From assembly GCF_038397775.1 (NCBI RefSeq), contig NZ_CP151650.1, positions 3,596,001 to 3,660,000 on the forward strand: a DNA stretch of 64,000 bases. The letters run 5' to 3'. A model generated the notes under the pieces. The model was not told where the DNA came from, searched no databases, and saw only the letters and a program-made list of their open reading frames with translations. Positions 1-6,370 of this stretch are shown here, one piece after another. Source of the DNA: Pseudomonas sp. RC10. GTDB lineage: Bacteria; Pseudomonadota; Gammaproteobacteria; Pseudomonadales; Pseudomonadaceae. Position numbers and translations under genes: made by a program. Each line of letters begins with the position of its first letter. Within the stretch, counting starts at the first letter, position 1.

Positions 1-1296
1 CAGTTGAAGCGGGCGAGGGTGACCATCACCAACCGAGTGGTCTGCACCCGTTTGCTCACCGATGAGGAAGGTGCAGTGAACGGCGTCATGGGGTTCGACT
101 GTCGCACCGCCGATTTCTACGTGATCAAAGCCAAGGCCGTGATCCTCTGCTGCGGCGCTGCCGGGCGACTGGGCCTGCCGTCGTCGGGTTACCTGATGGG
201 CACCTACGAAAACCCGACCAACGCAGGCGACGGTTATGCAATGGCCTATCACGCCGGTGCAGAACTGGCGAATCTGGAGTGCTTCCAGATCAACCCGCTG
301 ATCAAGGATTACAACGGCCCCGCGTGCGCGTACGTGACCGGCCCCTTGGGCGGCTACACGGCCAACAACAAGGGCGACCGCTTCATCGAGTGCGACTACT
401 GGAGCGGCCAGATGATGTGGGAGTTCCACCAGGAACTTGAAAGCGGCAACGGTCCGGTGTTTCTCAAGCTCGATCACCTGGCTGAAGAAACCATCCAGAA
501 CATCGAGGAAATCCTGCACAGCAACGAGCGCCCGAGTCGTGGGCAGTTTCACGCCAATCGCGGCACCGATTACCGCAGCCAGATGGTGGAGATGCACATC
601 TCGGAAATCGGCTTTTGCAGCGGGCATTCCGCCTCGGGGGTGTGGGTCAACGAGCGTGCGGAAACGTCGGTCAAGGGCCTGTATTCAGCGGGCGACATGG
701 CAGCCGTCCCGCACAATTACATGCTCGGCGCGTTCACGTATGGCTGGTTCGCCGGCAACAACGCGGCGGATTACGTCGCGGTGCGGGATTTCAGCAGCGT
801 TGATGCGCAACAGATCGAACGCGAAAAGGCGCGGGTCTATGCGCCTCTGGATCGCGAACACGGCCTGCCACCGGCGCAGGTCGAATACAAGCTGCGGCGC
901 TTTGTGAACGACTATCTGCAACCGCCAAAAGTGACCAAAAAGATGCAGATCGGCTTGCAGCGCTTTGATGACATCGAGCGCGATCTCGACCAACTGAAAG
1001 CCAACAATGCTCACGAACTGATGCGGGCCATGGAAGTCAGCGTGATCCGTGACTGCGCCGAGATGGCCGCCCGCGCTTCGCTGTATCGCACTGAAAGCCG
1101 TTGGGGCCTTTACCACCACCGCGTCGATCATCCACTGCGCAACGACCGCGACTGGTTCTGCCACACGCACCTGAAGAAAGACGAAGACGGCCGCATGGTC
1201 AGTTTCAAGAAGCCGGTCGAGCCTTACATCGTGGCGTTGGACGCCGACGAAATGCTCGCCTATGACCGCCTGCGCGTGGGGGCTGACGCTGCCTGA
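1..1296 (+). CDS. AprA/fumarate-reductase-like FAD flavoprotein subunit (5' partial)
   Basis: The frame is open from the first base, so the N-terminal FAD dinucleotide-binding fold lies outside the window. The visible 431 codons look like the catalytic and C-terminal part of the succinate dehydrogenase/fumarate reductase/APS reductase alpha family. A second FAD-contact stretch of the type SVKGLYSAGDMAAVPHNY is seen near residue 225, and a helical C-terminal domain with conserved Arg follows. The partner is surely the two-cluster ferredoxin that starts 59 bases downstream, an AprA-AprB-like pair. The reaction is unknown. The linked TauABC-type importer suggests a small imported anion (sulfonate-like) as substrate, which is inference. 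It could instead be a fumarate-reductase-like enzyme acting on another unsaturated acid. Confidence 0.8.
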   Translation, partial: QLKRARVTITNRVVCTRLLTDEEGAVNGVMGFDCRTADFYVIKAKAVILCCGAAGRLGLPSSGYLMGTYENPTNAGDGYAMAYHAGAELANLECFQINPLIKDYNGPACAYVTGPLGGYTANNKGDRFIECDYWSGQMMWEFHQELESGNGPVFLKLDHLAEETIQNIEEILHSNERPSRGQFHANRGTDYRSQMVEMHISEIGFCSGHSASGVWVNERAETSVKGLYSAGDMAAVPHNYMLGAFTYGWFAGNNAADYVAVRDFSSVDAQQIEREKARVYAPLDREHGLPPAQVEYKLRRFVNDYLQPPKVTKKMQIGLQRFDDIERDLDQLKANNAHELMRAMEVSVIRDCAEMAARASLYRTESRWGLYHHRVDHPLRNDRDWFCHTHLKKDEDGRMVSFKKPVEPYIVALDADEMLAYDRLRVGADAA

Positions 1297-1355
1297 TCCA
1301 GCGTCGCCTGCACCTTTTAGACAGAGAGCGCGATACGCGCCAAGGACACCGTGAA

Positions 1356-1601
1356 ATGGCTTACCAGCCCCAGGAAATCTTCTTCCGCTCCAACGCCCCG
1401 GTCACCGTGGACGAGGACAAGTGCATCGCCGACAAGGGCTGCACGGTATGCGTCGACGTCTGCCCGATGGACCTGCTGGCGATCAATCCCGCGACCCAGA
1501 AGGCTTACATGGCGTTCGACGAGTGCTGGTATTGCATGCCCTGCGAGAAGGACTGCCCGACCGGGGCCGTGAAGGTCGAGATTCCGTACCTGTTGCGCTG
1601 A
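1356..1601 (+). CDS. 2x[4Fe-4S] ferredoxin, AprB-like electron-transfer subunit
   Basis: This 81-residue protein has two cysteine quartets: C23, C29, C32, C36-Pro and C57, C60, C63, C67-Pro, the spacing of an 8Fe-8S ferredoxin domain. It is a short relative of APS reductase beta subunits and lacks their C-terminal tail. The ATG at 1356 is preceded by AAGGA at about 1342. It follows the flavoprotein gene closely and is presumably co-transcribed, carrying electrons to or from the FAD subunit in the cytoplasm. The first quartet has five residues between its first two cysteines instead of the usual two, as in AprB-type proteins. Confidence 0.88.
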   Translation: MAYQPQEIFFRSNAPVTVDEDKCIADKGCTVCVDVCPMDLLAINPATQKAYMAFDECWYCMPCEKDCPTGAVKVEIPYLLR

Positions 1602-1613
1602 TACGTAAACTTT

Positions 1614-1698
1614 GTAGGAGTGAGCTTGCTCGCGATTGCGTCAGGTCAGACACCGTTATGCGTCTGATCCATCTCATCGCGAGCAAACTCACTCCTAC
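1614..1698. repeat. REP doublet (inverted), family GTAGGAGTGAGC
   Basis: Two arms of about 22 bases, GTAGGAGTGAGCTTGCTCGC on the left and its near-exact reverse complement on the right, are separated by about 40 bases that also contain a short inverted repeat (GTCAGAC/GTCTGAT). This is the paired arrangement of Pseudomonas REP/REPIN elements. It lies between the ferredoxin gene and the binding-protein gene of one operon, so transcripts would form a long hairpin here. Confidence 0.85.
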
Positions 1699-1819
1699 AC
1701 GTGAACCTAAAGCCATCCGCCAACCCCGGACGCTGATTCACCCGACACCCCTCGTTTCCCACCGCGCCCGATCGCGGCGGAGACGACACTTCCTATCAAT
1801 GATGCGAGGGGATACATCC

Positions 1820-3229
1820 ATGTTATTGCGCGCCACGCTGGCCGGTTTCGTACTGGCTTCGTTGAGTCTGTCGGTTCAGGCCGAAACCATCCGGATTGCC
1901 ATCGGCACTCAAGACACCACCATCAATTGCGCGGCCGGCGGGCTGCTGATTCGCGAGCTCGGGCTGCTCGACAAATACCTGCCCCATGACGGCAAATACA
2001 AAGACGCGCAGTACCAGGTCGAGTGGAAAAACTTCACCAGTGGGGCGCCGCTGACCAATGAGATGGTGGCGGGCAAACTGGATTTTGGCGCGATGGCCGA
2101 TTTCCCCGGCGCCTTCAACGGCGTCGCGTTCGAAACCGCAGGCAAGCACAGCCTGTTCATCAGCGTGCTGTCGGGCAACATCAAGGGCAGCGGCAACGGC
2201 ATCGTCGTACCGACCGCGTCCACGGCGCAGTCGTTGGCCGACTTGAAGGGCAAAACGATCTCCGTGCCGTTCGCGTCCACTGCCCACGGCATGCTGCTGC
2301 GCGCCGTCGCGGCTCAGGGCTGGGACCCGCTGAAAGACGTCAACATCATCGCCCAGGCGCCGGAAGTCGCAGGTTCTGCGCTGCAAGCCGACAAGATCGA
2401 CGCCCACGCGGACTTCGTGCCGTTCGGTGAACTGTTCCCGAACCGTGGCTTCGCCCGCAAAATCTATGACGGTTCCCAATCCAACACCCCGACATTCCAC
2501 GGCGCGCTGGTGGACGAGAGCTACGCGAAGAAATACCCGGAAATCGTCGTCGCCTACCTGCGCGCCGGAATCGAGGCCAATCAGTTGCTGGCGGCCGAAC
2601 CCGAGAAATACAGCGAGCTGATCGAAAAAGTCACCGGCATCGAGGCCGAAGTCAATTACCTGTTCCACGGCCCTTTGGGCTTGCAGACCCGGGATCAGAC
2701 CTGGAAACCCGAATACCGCCAGGCCGTCGGCACCGCCATCGACACGCTCAAACTGATGAAGAAAGCCGACCGCGGGCTGGACCTGAACACCTTCATCGAC
2801 GACCAATACGTCCGTGCGGCGTACAAGGCATCGGGCGTGGACTACAACGCGCAATTGGCCAACTACGCCCAGTCGCCGCTCAAGGCCAATGACGCGCTGA
2901 CGGGCAAGCCGATCACCGATTTCAGCCACGTCGCCGAAATCTGGGTCAAGGGTGAGCCGAAAGTGCGCCATTACGCCTCGGCCGAATCGGCATTCACGGC
3001 CCTGCAGGCGCTGAACAAGGAAGGCAAGCCGATCCGCGCTGTGTACGCCCAGGCCGAAGACAGCGGCATCAAGCTCTTGGCCGGTCAGGCGTGGTTTGCC
3101 AGTGACAGCAAAGGTCGGTTGAGTGCCTTCCTCCTCAAAGGCCAAGCGCAGCAATTCGCTCAGGCGCAGGGGGGCAAGGTGTTGAACTTCCAGGACGCCA
3201 GCACTCAAGTTGCTGTGGCCAGCCGCTGA
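1820..3229 (+). CDS. ABC transporter substrate-binding protein with NosL-like C-terminal domain
   Basis: A 469-residue secreted binding protein. The signal peptide ends near SVQA/ETIRIAIG. The body belongs to the TauA/SsuA/NMT1-like class of aliphatic sulfonate/nitrate/taurine binding proteins. ATG 1820 is chosen because GAGGGG lies about 9 bases upstream; in-frame ATGs at 1799 and 1802 lack a good site. At 469 residues it is over 100 longer than TauA. Residues about 370-469 (RHYAS..AF, IRAVY, then a QGGKVLNF ending) resemble NosL, a periplasmic copper chaperone. That assignment is from pattern memory and is less certain than the binding-protein call. It feeds the permease and ATPase that follow. 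The gene is bracketed by REP doublets. Confidence 0.85.
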   Translation: MLLRATLAGFVLASLSLSVQAETIRIAIGTQDTTINCAAGGLLIRELGLLDKYLPHDGKYKDAQYQVEWKNFTSGAPLTNEMVAGKLDFGAMADFPGAFNGVAFETAGKHSLFISVLSGNIKGSGNGIVVPTASTAQSLADLKGKTISVPFASTAHGMLLRAVAAQGWDPLKDVNIIAQAPEVAGSALQADKIDAHADFVPFGELFPNRGFARKIYDGSQSNTPTFHGALVDESYAKKYPEIVVAYLRAGIEANQLLAAEPEKYSELIEKVTGIEAEVNYLFHGPLGLQTRDQTWKPEYRQAVGTAIDTLKLMKKADRGLDLNTFIDDQYVRAAYKASGVDYNAQLANYAQSPLKANDALTGKPITDFSHVAEIWVKGEPKVRHYASAESAFTALQALNKEGKPIRAVYAQAEDSGIKLLAGQAWFASDSKGRLSAFLLKGQAQQFAQAQGGKVLNFQDASTQVAVASR

Positions 3230-3235
3230 CCCTTT

Positions 3236-3322
3236 GTGGGAGTGAGCGTGCTCGCGATAAGGGTGGGTGGCATGAAACCGATTCCGCTGACCGGACGCTA
3301 TCGCGAGCAAGCTCACTCCTAC
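3236..3322. repeat. REP doublet (inverted), same family as 1614-1698
   Basis: The left arm begins GTGGGAGTGAGCGTGCTCGC and the right arm is TATCGCGAGCAAGCTCACTC continuing to CCTAC. The arms are about 24 bases with a 39-base spacer. It starts 7 bases after the binding-protein stop codon and ends 46 bases before the permease start. Confidence 0.85.
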
Positions 3323-3368
3323 AGTGGGAGCTGCGTCGTTCGAAGATTGCACACACATGGAGAACGCT

Positions 3369-4151
3369 GTGACTTCACCTTTGCTGCGCTGGTTGCCGAG
3401 AAGCGCATCCATTCTGCTCTGCCTGCTGTTCTGGCAACTGGCAGCGAGCAACCACTGGAATCTAGGGCTGGTGACGTTCGCCAACGTCCCGACGCCGCTG
3501 TCGGTGATCGAGGCTGCGGCCGGACTGGTGGATTCGGGTCGGCTGACGCAGCACCTGACGGCCAGTCTCAGCCGAGTGTTCGCGGGGTATCTGGCCGCCT
3601 TGATCATCGGCGTTGGCCTGGGCGTCATCATCGGCCGTTCGCGCTGGGCGGAAGACGTGCTGCTGCCGCCGTTGGAAGTGCTGCGACCGATTCCGGCCGT
3701 GGCGTGGATTCCGCTGGCGATCCTGATGTTTCCGTCTTCCGAACTGTCGATGGTGTTCATCACCTTCACCGGCGCGCTGTTTCCGATCCTGCTCAACACC
3801 GTGCACGGTGTCGAAGGCGTCGATCCGCGACTGATCGCGTCGGCAAAAAGCCTGGGGGCAGGGCGGCGGGCGATTCTGTTGGAAGTCGTTCTGCCGGGTG
3901 CCGCGCCGAGCATCATCACCGGCCTGGCCATCGGCATGGGCACCTCGTGGTTTTGCCTGGTGACGGCCGAGATGATTTCCGGGCAGTTCGGCATCGGCTA
4001 TTACACCTGGGAGTCGTACACCATCCAGAATTACGCCGACATCGTCGTCGGCATGTTGCTGATCGGCCTGCTGGGCATGGGCAGCAGCCTGTTGATCAAG
4101 CGTGTGGGGCAGTTGTTCACCCCTTGGCACCGACCACGAGGAAAAGCCTGA
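3369..4151 (+). CDS. ABC transporter permease, TauC/SsuC type
   Basis: A 260-residue integral membrane protein of the nitrate/sulfonate/taurine importer permease family. There are about six hydrophobic segments and the cytoplasmic EAA loop, seen as the SAKSLGAGRRAILLEVVLPG-type segment that contacts the ATPase. Three starts are possible. GTG 3369 is preferred because GGAG sits 6 bases upstream; ATG 3357 is in frame but has no Shine-Dalgarno sequence, and ATG 3324 abuts the REP. The stop overlaps the ATPase start (TGATG), so the two are translationally coupled. Confidence 0.9.
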   Translation: MTSPLLRWLPRSASILLCLLFWQLAASNHWNLGLVTFANVPTPLSVIEAAAGLVDSGRLTQHLTASLSRVFAGYLAALIIGVGLGVIIGRSRWAEDVLLPPLEVLRPIPAVAWIPLAILMFPSSELSMVFITFTGALFPILLNTVHGVEGVDPRLIASAKSLGAGRRAILLEVVLPGAAPSIITGLAIGMGTSWFCLVTAEMISGQFGIGYYTWESYTIQNYADIVVGMLLIGLLGMGSSLLIKRVGQLFTPWHRPRGKA

Positions 4152-4999
4152 TGACTGTCGCGACCCACCCCGCAGGCCGCGTGGACATCCACGGCCTCAC
4201 GATTTCCCTGGGCGAAGGGCAGAACGCCTTTCAAGCCGTGCAGGCGCTGGATTGCCAGATCGAGTCGGGGCAGTTCGTCTGCATTCTCGGGCCGTCCGGC
4301 TGTGGCAAGTCGACCCTGCTCGGCGCGCTGGCCGGACACCTGCAGCCGATCGCTGGCAACCTCAGTGTCGATGGCGCTTCGGTCAACGGGCCGTCGCCGC
4401 AACGGGGCATGGTCTTTCAGCAACACACGCTGTTTCCCTGGCGCACCGTTCGCGAGAATGTCGCCTTTGGCTTGAAGATGAGCGGGGTGGGCAAGGCCGA
4501 GCGCCTGTCGGCCGCAGATGAAATGCTCGCCTTGGTGGGCCTCGAAGGGTTTGCCGGGCACTGGCCGAATCAGCTGTCGGGCGGCATGCAGCAGCGGGTG
4601 GAAATCGCCCGCGTGCTGATCAATCGCCCGCGTCTGCTGCTGATGGACGAGCCCTTCGGTGCGCTGGACGCCTTGACCCGCATGAAGATGCAGGCGCTGT
4701 TGCTGGACATCTGGACGCGGATACGCACCACCGTCGTGTTCGTGACCCATGACATCGACGAGGCGCTATTCCTGGCTGACCGGATTCTGGTCATGAGCCC
4801 ACGGCCAGGGCGTTTCATCGAAGACCTGCAACTGGATTTTCCGCGCCCGAGAAGCACTGAGCTGGTGACCCGCCCGGAATTTTCGCGCCTGAAACGGCAT
4901 TGCCTCGAACTGCTGCACCACGAGGACGGTCGGCAGCTGCCACGGCTGAACCCCCTCGGGCTTCCTAACGAACACGACGGACTGCGACTGGCCTTATGA
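4151..4999 (+). CDS. ABC transporter ATP-binding protein, TauB/SsuB type
   Basis: A 282-residue nucleotide-binding subunit. Walker A is GPSGCGKST, a Q-loop follows at FQQHTLFPW, the signature is LSGGMQQR, Walker B is LLLMDEP with a D-loop GALDAL, and the switch His is in FVTHD. These place it in the TauB/SsuB/NrtD group, which energises import of sulfonates, nitrate or taurine-like solutes. It overlaps the permease stop at its start and the HEAT-repeat gene by 4 bases at its end (ATGA). Confidence 0.93.
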   Translation: MTVATHPAGRVDIHGLTISLGEGQNAFQAVQALDCQIESGQFVCILGPSGCGKSTLLGALAGHLQPIAGNLSVDGASVNGPSPQRGMVFQQHTLFPWRTVRENVAFGLKMSGVGKAERLSAADEMLALVGLEGFAGHWPNQLSGGMQQRVEIARVLINRPRLLLMDEPFGALDALTRMKMQALLLDIWTRIRTTVVFVTHDIDEALFLADRILVMSPRPGRFIEDLQLDFPRPRSTELVTRPEFSRLKRHCLELLHHEDGRQLPRLNPLGLPNEHDGLRLAL

Positions 5000-5967
5000 C
5001 TGACCTGACGAGCTATTTTGAAGACATCGACCACCCGGAGATTCTCGCCCTGCGAAGCCGTCTCGAAAACCCGGACGCTGGCGTGCGGCGCATCGCGTTG
5101 ATTGAGCTGGCGGACCTTGAAGAGCCGGAGGGGTTGGACTGGTTGGCAAACCGGCTGGCGTCAGACCCGGCAACCGACGTACGTGCGCAAGCTGCAGCAC
5201 TGCTGGAAGCCTGGGAAGAGCCCGAAGTGGTGCAGGCCCTGTGTGAAGCCTTGACCGACGCCGAGCCTGCGGTGCGTGACGCGGCCGCGCAGAGCCTGAG
5301 CGTGTTGAAAACGGTGGAGGCGGGCCGGGTGATTCTGCCGTGGGCGGGCCACGCTGACGTCAGTGTGCGGACCGCGGCGTTTCGGGCGCTGCGTGAATTA
5401 CGCCTTGAAGACGCCGCGCCTGCCGCGCTTCATGCGTTGGCCGACGAGGATGCTGGCGTGCGTCGCGAGGCCGTTGGGGTGCTGGGCTGGCTGAAGAACA
5501 CCGATGCGCTGGCTGCCTTGGCCACCCTGGCCAGCCAGGACCCTGACAGTGAAGTGCGCCGCGCAGCCACCGGGGCGCTGGGGCTGGCCAGCAACGCCGA
5601 CGTGTTGCCTGCTTTGCGTAAAGCCTTGCAGGACGACGCCTGGCAAGTGCGCGAAGAGGCGGCCACGACGTTGGGTAAGGTGGGGCAACAGGACGCCGGA
5701 CCGGCGTTGATCGACGCGTTGGCGGATGAATACTGGCAGGTGCGGTTGCGTGCCACCCGCAGCCTGGGGCGTTTGCGTCACGTCGAGGCGCTGTGGCCGT
5801 TGGTGGAAGTCTTGACCCACGGCATCAGCAACCTGCGCAAAGAAGCGGCCTTGGCCCTTGGTGAACTGCGCGACGGCCGCGCGCGACCGGCGCTGTTGCA
5901 GCTGGAACACGACGGCGATCCCGAGGTGCGCAAGGCCGTGCGCATCGCCTTGGCGCAACTGCCATGA
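4996..5967 (+). CDS. HEAT-repeat protein
   Basis: 323 residues built almost entirely of about ten PBS-lyase-type HEAT repeats, seen as the recurring pattern VR..AA..LG.L....A...L..AL.D. There is no signal peptide or membrane segment, so it is cytoplasmic. Such alpha-solenoids are protein-binding scaffolds, and in several redox operons they assist maturation or subunit docking. It overlaps the ATPase gene and the next gene by 4 bases each, so it is a true member of this operon. A role as assembly factor for the flavoprotein-ferredoxin pair is inference. Confidence 0.85.
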   Translation: MTDLTSYFEDIDHPEILALRSRLENPDAGVRRIALIELADLEEPEGLDWLANRLASDPATDVRAQAAALLEAWEEPEVVQALCEALTDAEPAVRDAAAQSLSVLKTVEAGRVILPWAGHADVSVRTAAFRALRELRLEDAAPAALHALADEDAGVRREAVGVLGWLKNTDALAALATLASQDPDSEVRRAATGALGLASNADVLPALRKALQDDAWQVREEAATTLGKVGQQDAGPALIDALADEYWQVRLRATRSLGRLRHVEALWPLVEVLTHGISNLRKEAALALGELRDGRARPALLQLEHDGDPEVRKAVRIALAQLP

Positions 5968-6260
5968 TCCCGGCCCCGGTCTCCATCGGCAATTCCACGG
6001 AGCGGCAGCGCCTGAGGTTGAGCTGGCAGGATGGGCGTGAGCAGTACATTGACCATGTGCTGCTGCGACAGCAATGTCCGTGCTCGCAATGCCGGGCGTT
6101 TCGTTTGAGAGGGATGAAGCCGGTGGTTGCGTCTTCGTTATGTCTGATTGAGATCAACCCACAGGGCTACGGGTTGCAACTGGTGTTCAGCGACGGGCAT
6201 CAGCGCGGGATTTACCCGTGGGCGTATTTGGCGGGGTTGGGTCCGGAAAGCACCGCCTGA
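5964..6260 (+). CDS. DUF971 (GBBH-like N-terminal domain) protein
   Basis: 98 residues matching the DUF971 family: R-L-x-W-x-D-G near residue 22, then a CPCSQCR cysteine cluster and the closing SDGHQRGIYPWAYL segment. The same fold forms the zinc-binding N-terminal domain of gamma-butyrobetaine hydroxylase, and stand-alone copies are often found beside Fe-S proteins. It is translationally coupled to the HEAT gene and ends the operon. The partner is unknown; iron-sulfur or zinc delivery to the upstream enzyme is a guess. Confidence 0.85.
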   Translation: MIPAPVSIGNSTERQRLRLSWQDGREQYIDHVLLRQQCPCSQCRAFRLRGMKPVVASSLCLIEINPQGYGLQLVFSDGHQRGIYPWAYLAGLGPESTA

Positions 6261-6279: not shown

Positions 6280-6370
6280 CTGTGGGAGCGAATTCATTCG
6301 CGAAAGATTTGCCAGACGATGGAGATGTATCGGCCGCACCGGCCTCTCGCGAATGAATTCGCTCCCACAG
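6280..6370. repeat. REP doublet (inverted), family GTGGGAGCGAATTCATTCGC
   Basis: Two 24-base arms are perfect reverse complements (CTGTGGGAGCGAATTCATTC and so on), with about 43 bases between them. The core differs from the REPs at 1614 and 3236 (CGAATTCATTCG instead of TGAGCTTGCTCG), so it is a second sequence class. It lies just downstream of the DUF971 gene. Confidence 0.87.

Follow-up and report, generated by a model that had tools for sequence, protein, structure and literature searches.

The window analysed here is a stretch of 64,000 nucleotides from the 6.71 Mb genome of Pseudomonas sp. RC10 (G000:C1:3596001-3660000), and the system in question is a group of seven genes on the + strand across its bases 1-6260, the first of which starts 438 bases upstream of the window (Table 1). 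The genes encode a flavin adenine dinucleotide (FAD) flavoprotein, a ferredoxin, the substrate-binding protein (SBP), permease and ATPase of an ATP-binding cassette (ABC) importer, a HEAT-repeat protein and a DUF971 protein. An earlier note, made from the sequence alone, had described seven co-directional genes with the last four overlapping by 1-4 bases, and the gene coordinates confirmed this layout, with the permease, ATPase, HEAT and DUF971 genes chained by overlaps of 1, 4 and 4 bases; to it the present analysis adds an upstream regulator, inverted repeats in the gaps and a NosL-like tail on the SBP. The repeats, for which “REP-like” is a label given in this analysis, lie in both larger gaps (1602-1819 and 3230-3356), and the arrangement suggests that the seven genes are likely carried on a single transcript in spite of them. 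Taken together, the system is real, conserved and apparently uncharacterised, being of the adenosine 5'-phosphosulfate (APS) reductase kind with putatively a sulfonate as its substrate.

Table 1. Positions of the seven genes and the inverted repeats, numbered from the first base of the window
Feature	Position	Strand	Basis
AprA-like FAD flavoprotein, 577 amino acids (aa), NCBIfam PRK08275	1..1296 (gene start G000:C1:3595563)	+	NF006131 match, nearest solved chain 8a8o, tree
Dicluster [4Fe-4S] ferredoxin, 81 aa, AprB-like, DECW tryptophan	1356..1601	+	Pfam Fer4_7
REP-like inverted repeat, ferredoxin/SBP gap	1613..1699		24-nt arms, 96% complementary
TauA/SsuA-like SBP with C-terminal NosL-like domain	1820..3229	+	Pfam/NCBIfam profiles, site residues
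REP-like inverted repeat, SBP/permease gap	3230..3328		30-nt arms, 87% complementary
ABC permease, BPD_transp_1, NtrB/SsuC/TauC type (start a chosen, likely ATG; frame open from 3324)	3357..4151	+	Pfam/NCBIfam profiles
ABC ATPase, TauB/NrtCD type	4151..4999	+	Pfam/NCBIfam profiles
HEAT-repeat protein, matching C-terminal part of FAD-HEAT fusion PRK13800	4996..5967	+	
DUF971 (PF06155) protein, CPCSQC motif	5964..6260	+	PF06155, 71.4 bits
REP-like inverted repeat 3' of the cluster	6280..6370		27-nt arms, 96% complementary

Recurrence of the operon

The operon was followed in two sets of loci (L numbers), both selected by the flavoprotein. The close set holds the best 80 of 590 stretches from a genome scan, which is not a random sample, and all of these belong to Pseudomonas except one labelled Paucimonas. 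All seven genes, in the same order, were observed in 76 of the 80 loci, and the remaining four lie on contigs that end early. The diverse set of 34 loci is composed of 14 plasmid stretches picked from 60 listed rows and 20 genomes of the host's phylum, two of which appear also among the close loci. In this set the ferredoxin and the HEAT protein were found in 34/34 loci (the latter once fused to the flavoprotein, in L095), all three importer genes in 29 and DUF971 in 26, although the profiles behind these calls were built from the same 34 loci, so that presence is partly circular and absence is not. Eight loci lack DUF971, and in the three cyanobacterial ones among them the HEAT gene is followed by a Mrp/NBP35 protein with FSCA and ParA domains. 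Since the whole set recurs in order among the close loci and the core in every diverse locus, the gene set is not a chance assembly; a failure of the genes to co-occur in other genomes, which the earlier note had named as grounds for dropping its proposal, was not what we found. The system is widespread but patchy: in a draw of 398 genomes from the phylum, 21 contained its flavoprotein family, and at the level of genera it was present in 10 of 212.

The regulator beside the operon varies. A GntR regulator precedes the flavoprotein gene in 79 of the 80 close loci, whereas in the host strain an Lrp/AsnC regulator occupies this place, upstream of the window, and beyond it an IscS-like cysteine desulfurase is encoded divergently (L004:8621-10447). 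The same Lrp and cysteine desulfurase stand in place of GntR in L005, a near relative whose locus is 99% identical to that of the host, which amounts to a regulator swap in these two strains, the only ones with a cysteine desulfurase beside the operon. Elsewhere in the host genome, an SsuA-type ABC transporter, an allophanate-hydrolase-like protein and an amidase are encoded together (L177:2681-9174), and the last frame of this cluster, open over 248 aa, is a GntR regulator that shares 69% identity with the one at the L006 operon.

Clustering of the neighbours at 115 loci was swamped by antisense frames, and only the core families, GntR, Lrp, ferredoxin-NADP reductase (FNR) and Crp/Fnr stood out among the labelled groups. 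Among the diverse loci, FNR lies nearby in ten and an FdxA-type ferredoxin in six, with L104 as the query source for both. A YeiH-type transporter was found in 8/34 loci, six of them merely 29-32% identical and one being the query source, and a TauE/SafE “sulfite exporter” type in 3/34, two of which are query sources.

Redox pair and iron-sulfur proteins

The flavoprotein passes the NCBIfam family PRK08275 (NF006131) with 1144.6 bits against a cut-off of 587, and stays below the AprA equivalogs (TIGR02061, 187.8 bits against 641.75; PRK06854, 304.3 against 557); in the same profile search it failed the SdhA and NadB equivalogs as well. Its nearest solved relative is the alpha subunit of the 3'-phosphoadenosine 5'-phosphosulfate (PAPS) reductase of Methanothermococcus (8a8o), followed by AprA. 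In a tree of 24 proteins, from which AprA_L174 (wrong reading frame), the very long row L097 and five family rows were left out, the PRK08275 family adjoins five AprA proteins and one PAPS-reductase-like protein from Ilyobacter (fork 100/100), with SdhA and NadB as well as the Asf-like protein of the host standing apart (fork 100/100). Terminal branches are long outside the PRK08275 family, and the one-clade test (p-AU 0.378) neither rejects the family as a clade nor proves it. A position inside a characterised enzyme family, which would have spoken against an undescribed system, was thus not observed: the flavoprotein branches beside AprA.

Alignment to AprA revealed that N74, H398 and H446 are kept as N60, H355 and H384, whereas W234 and F448 are replaced by Y215 and Y386, and R265 by L246; all six aligned positions are invariant in 14/14 family members. 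In AprA, Arg265 is presumably an anion-binding residue. The nucleotide-side stretch around AprA Q145 is not kept. The catalytic Arg of succinate dehydrogenase/fumarate reductase, located in the RGEGG loop of SdhA, has no counterpart in the six PRK08275 family rows aligned. Flavoprotein identity between Pseudomonas and cyanobacteria is 63-64%, which argues for one strict substrate. An AlphaFold model of the flavoprotein from a 9-row alignment was too poor for use (mean predicted local distance difference test score, pLDDT, 42.6).

The eight Cys of the window ferredoxin provide the ligands for two [4Fe-4S] clusters, as in the architecture of AprBA and PAPS reductase, and the tryptophan of its DECW motif is present in 34/34 ferredoxins extracted from the diverse loci. 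With 81 aa against a profile length of 132, it remains under the AprB cut-off (TIGR02060, 36.8 bits against 135.65). A Trp in the beta subunit of PAPS reductase is proposed to help carry electrons to FAD (PMC10322725). The electron path thus appears to be APS-reductase-like and the pocket distinct. The tree, the nearest solved chains and the DECW ferredoxin therefore bear out the AprAB-like pair recognised from the sequence earlier.

The described enzymes closest in architecture are accordingly AprBA and the PAPS reductase of Methanothermococcus thermolithotrophicus (MtPAPSR, PDB 8a8o), which share with the window system a FAD subunit, a two-[4Fe-4S] ferredoxin with Trp, and Asn/His near FAD, and which occupy the neighbouring branch of the tree, represented for PAPS reductase by the Ilyobacter protein and not by MtPAPSR. 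Unlike them, the window system has lost Arg265, has an altered nucleotide stretch and a short ferredoxin, and is accompanied by an importer and the HEAT/DUF971 partners instead of sulfate activation enzymes. On the Ilyobacter plasmid pILYOP02 (L166:3378-8709), APS kinase, the PAPS-reductase-like alpha subunit with its ferredoxin, CysD and a GTP-binding protein lie together.

The two remaining proteins appear to serve this enzyme. The HEAT protein matches the fusion PRK13800 with 86.7 bits, far under the whole-fusion cut-off of 1196, the match being to its C-terminal tail; this match and the HEAT-flavoprotein fusion in the actinobacterium Tsukamurella (L095) indicate that the HEAT protein most likely acts on the flavoprotein enzyme. 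The DUF971 protein clears the PF06155 gathering score of 22.8, and the host genome holds two further PF06155 matches (G000:C1:6395304 and 4549499). DUF971 is the third, C-terminal domain of the Fe-S (iron-sulfur) scaffold HCF101, with a CxCxxC motif (PMC7980591) that the CPCSQC of the window protein fits. The other two HCF101 domains are those of the FSCA-ParA protein in the three cyanobacterial loci, so that the domains of this carrier, of the HCF101/Mrp-NBP35 kind, are split between lineages. Fe-S maturation, which fits better than carnitine synthesis because DUF971 is an HCF101 domain, is thus the likeliest role of the DUF971 and HEAT proteins as judged from their families. Their earlier designation as assembly factors is plausible, and the zinc domain of gamma-butyrobetaine hydroxylase, then offered as the DUF971 relative, is less relevant than HCF101. 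A 2021 paper described what DUF971 does in HCF101 as elusive (PMC7980591), and the place of this domain in a bacterial operon, where deletion and naming of the Fe-S client are feasible, is of use.

Importer and binding protein

The first solved chains matched by the SBP profile are TauA (E 6.9e-26) and SsuA, which together with the Pfam/NCBIfam profiles supports the Tau/Ssu-type importer of the earlier note, and the SBP scores under the curated cut-offs of both (for the TauA equivalog TIGR01729, 81.2 bits against 304.25). TauA binds the sulfonate with Gln30 and with main-chain Gly61, Gly79 and Thr132, whereas its ligands for the amine are Glu106, Thr132 and Asp205 (PMC6906117); the SsuA ligands are Gln36, Gly68, Gly86 and Ser141 (PMC3839906). 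These sites were mapped from the printed profile alignment and counted in 25 of 30 extracted SBPs, leaving out L005, L074, L133, L135 and the weak L107 match. The cradle residues Q31 and G75 (TauA Q30 and G61; SsuA Q36 and G68) are kept in 25/25, and position 93, at the main-chain ligand G79 of TauA, is A or G in 25/25, whereas the TauA amine ligands E106 and D205 are replaced by N126 and H227 in every one of them. With the cradle Gln and Gly kept and the amine ligands replaced, we read the ligand as having a sulfonate-like head group and a non-amine tail.

A further difference from TauA and SsuA is the C-terminal tail, as profile positions 361-468 match NosL (7og7, E 7e-5); the window SBP itself reaches 17.2 bits against the PF05573 gathering score of 24. 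An AlphaFold model of the SBP from a 7-row alignment was likewise too poor (mean pLDDT 43.1), and Foldseek on the SBP gave no match at E <= 0.001; the weak matches that head its list (SsuA, TauA, DszB) are no independent evidence.

Candidate function and alternatives

Judging from sequence comparisons, we tentatively put forward, as a possibility, a sulfur-acquisition module in which a ferredoxin-driven enzyme of the APS-reductase type would release sulfite from an imported, non-taurine sulfonate. The TauABC/SsuABC-type importer with its NosL-tailed SBP would take up a small oxyanion, for which a sulfonate that is not taurine is the likeliest candidate. Ferredoxin reduced in the cytoplasm by FNR with NADPH may then feed the APS/PAPS-reductase-like complex of flavoprotein and dicluster ferredoxin; electrons would cross the two [4Fe-4S] clusters and the tryptophan to FAD, and the substrate would be cleaved reductively at the flavin N5, with release of sulfite. 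The HEAT protein, together with the DUF971 protein or, in the three cyanobacterial loci, with Mrp/NBP35, may help to put the complex together and to load its Fe-S clusters or shield them. Families, cofactor ligands, conservation, active-site residues and co-occurrence were computed, and from them we infer the substrate class, the reductive direction, the sulfite product and the chaperone roles. This sulfonate-reductase reading is preferred because it uses most of the parts, and the earlier note's dedicated import-and-redox system for an organosulfur or similar anion is supported in part, namely in the AprAB-like pair and the Tau/Ssu-type importer.

More doubtful is the wider proposal that these operons represent an oxygen-independent desulfonation enzyme on an APS-reductase scaffold, widespread in aerobic bacteria and cyanobacteria, that is, a flavin N5 reductase of sulfonates (or S-sulfo compounds) served by a dedicated importer and a dedicated Fe-S maturation pair of HEAT and either DUF971 or Mrp. 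To our knowledge, the known aerobic routes of sulfur release rely on oxygenases or specific lyases. If true, a conserved enzyme of the APS-reductase type, paired with a dedicated sulfonate-type importer, would add another chemistry and could be a new oxygen-free release of sulfur; it would also account for a protein labelled “fumarate reductase/succinate dehydrogenase flavoprotein” in databases. Sulfate esters and sulfonates are the major organic sulfur forms in soil (PMC4267179). By analogy, the isethionate reductase IsrBHDK of Rhodobacter capsulatus, which together with SsuCAB likewise combines an oxygen-independent reductase and a sulfonate importer and releases sulfite (PMC11423573), shows that such parts can form a real pathway, although this enzyme is nitrogenase-like and of another fold. 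Induction at the Isr locus extends to a cysteine desulfurase, a rhodanese protein and a FAD oxidoreductase, none of them needed for growth on isethionate (PMC11423573). No description of the present operon was found in the open-licence literature by titles and abstract starts, subscription papers being outside this scope, which agrees with the earlier statement that the gene combination has no assigned function; the excerpted text of PMC8079746 names ssu and tau genes only.

Several observations weigh against a sulfonate reductase. Arg265 of AprA is lost, so that the pocket is unlike those of the known sulfite-releasing flavoenzymes, and we know of no precedent for flavin cleavage of an unactivated C-S bond. 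FNR is missing in 24/34 diverse loci, among them all nine loci of the window's own class from the phylum draw, so that for Pseudomonas this electron supply is only putative. Exporters of the YeiH/TauE types are missing from most of the diverse loci. In the SBP, position 154, at the site of TauA T132 and SsuA S141, is T in 15/25 and A in 10/25, and the Cys motif of DUF971 is missing in four rhizobial-type rows, as it is in some HCF101 groups (PMC7980591). In addition, 2/14 plasmid loci (L091, L100) have a flavin monooxygenase or an LLM oxidoreductase immediately downstream, which favours an Asf-like alternative, and the amidases beside 3/34 diverse loci (L105, L107, L140) hint that the substrate may carry an amide.

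Among described analogues, asfRABC of Pseudomonas putida S-313 comes nearest; it serves arylsulfonates and is made of the same parts, namely SBP, ABC transporter, reductase/ferredoxin and regulator (PMC4267179). Accordingly, a rather unlikely alternative is that flavoprotein and ferredoxin are an electron relay, the role proposed for AsfA/AsfB, to a separate SsuD-type monooxygenase by which the substrate would be desulfonated. An asfA mutant lost the use of aromatic sulfonates and kept that of aliphatic ones (PMC4267179), and the host has a second, Asf-like cluster (L163:8827-15115; G000:C1:about 3,511,800-3,518,100) with SBP, FAD flavoprotein, a 126-aa ferredoxin-like protein, second SBP and a DmoA/NtaA-like flavin monooxygenase, the parts other than the flavoprotein being named by eye. 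However, the window flavoprotein shares only 29% identity with this Asf-like one, which is the comparison made here and not one with S-313 AsfA, and it groups with the AprA and PAPS-reductase-like proteins; the active-site residues are kept across phyla, at 63% overall identity, beyond the needs of a mere relay; and the annotation of the other 12 of the 14 plasmid stretches, which is incomplete, contains no monooxygenase, the other 20 loci being unannotated. The window system also differs in its added HEAT and DUF971 proteins and in its regulator, which is of the LysR type in Asf and GntR, Lrp or Crp/Fnr beside the operon (Lrp in the host strain); a LysR-domain protein is directly beside it solely in two cyanobacterial loci (L094 and L106).

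A Cupriavidus metallidurans megaplasmid pair (L097) was considered as the published AsfA/AsfB (PMC2864759) and is not claimed as such, as its position misfits the locus-number estimate. Closer to the estimated place, a crude scan for motifs over 120 kb detected no flavoprotein/ferredoxin pair, and none of the 120 listed of 582 homologues of the host's Asf-like protein was named AsfA.

Two further alternatives are improbable, and about equally so. In the first, the flavoprotein would be an oxidative enzyme that dehydrogenates the imported compound, with ferredoxin and FNR passing the electrons to NADP+ or to respiration. In its favour, many dehydrogenases and oxidases belong to the SdhA/NadB superfamily, and enzymes of the FNR type work in both directions. 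Set against this are the absence of the SdhA catalytic Arg and the L104 FNR, which best matches PRK10926 (170.8 bits, under the cut-off of 390), a type that usually reduces ferredoxin. In the second, the NMT1-type importer would bring in a non-sulfur substrate, either an amide, a ureide or a nitro compound. Besides the amidase genes mentioned above, of which those of L140 belong to an amidase/allophanate-hydrolase-like/ABC set adjoining the operon, the host's closest copy of the operon GntR of other Pseudomonas sits in an amidase/ABC set (G000:C1:about 1,801,680-1,808,170). Nevertheless, amidases are confined to those three loci, the SBP keeps most of the sulfonate-cradle residues and has TauA and SsuA as its best solved relatives, and sulfur-type neighbours, though thin, do occur: the YeiH and TauE types, a cysteine desulfurase, and a rhodanese with a 3-mercaptopropionate dioxygenase, annotated in one locus (L100).

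That the enzyme is itself an APS or PAPS reductase serving sulfate assimilation, to which the closest solved chain would point, is highly improbable given the scores far under both AprA equivalog cut-offs, the loss of R265 and of the stretch around Q145, and the lack of any annotated ATP sulfurylase or APS kinase in the 14 plasmid stretches, unlike the Ilyobacter PAPS-reductase-like locus.

The surroundings of single loci deserve mention. In Nostoc edaphicum (L107, 9971-17377), HAD hydrolases, a methyltransferase, a GNAT and a VOC protein are encoded between flavoprotein and ferredoxin. The operon of Paraburkholderia (L100, 16631-20743) is followed by an LLM flavin oxidoreductase, a class II aldolase, the 3-mercaptopropionate dioxygenase and the rhodanese, and the core on plasmid pTcM1 of Acidithiobacillus caldus (L092, 10102-14035) by FdxA and a 3.4 kb gene for a FAD-dependent oxidoreductase.

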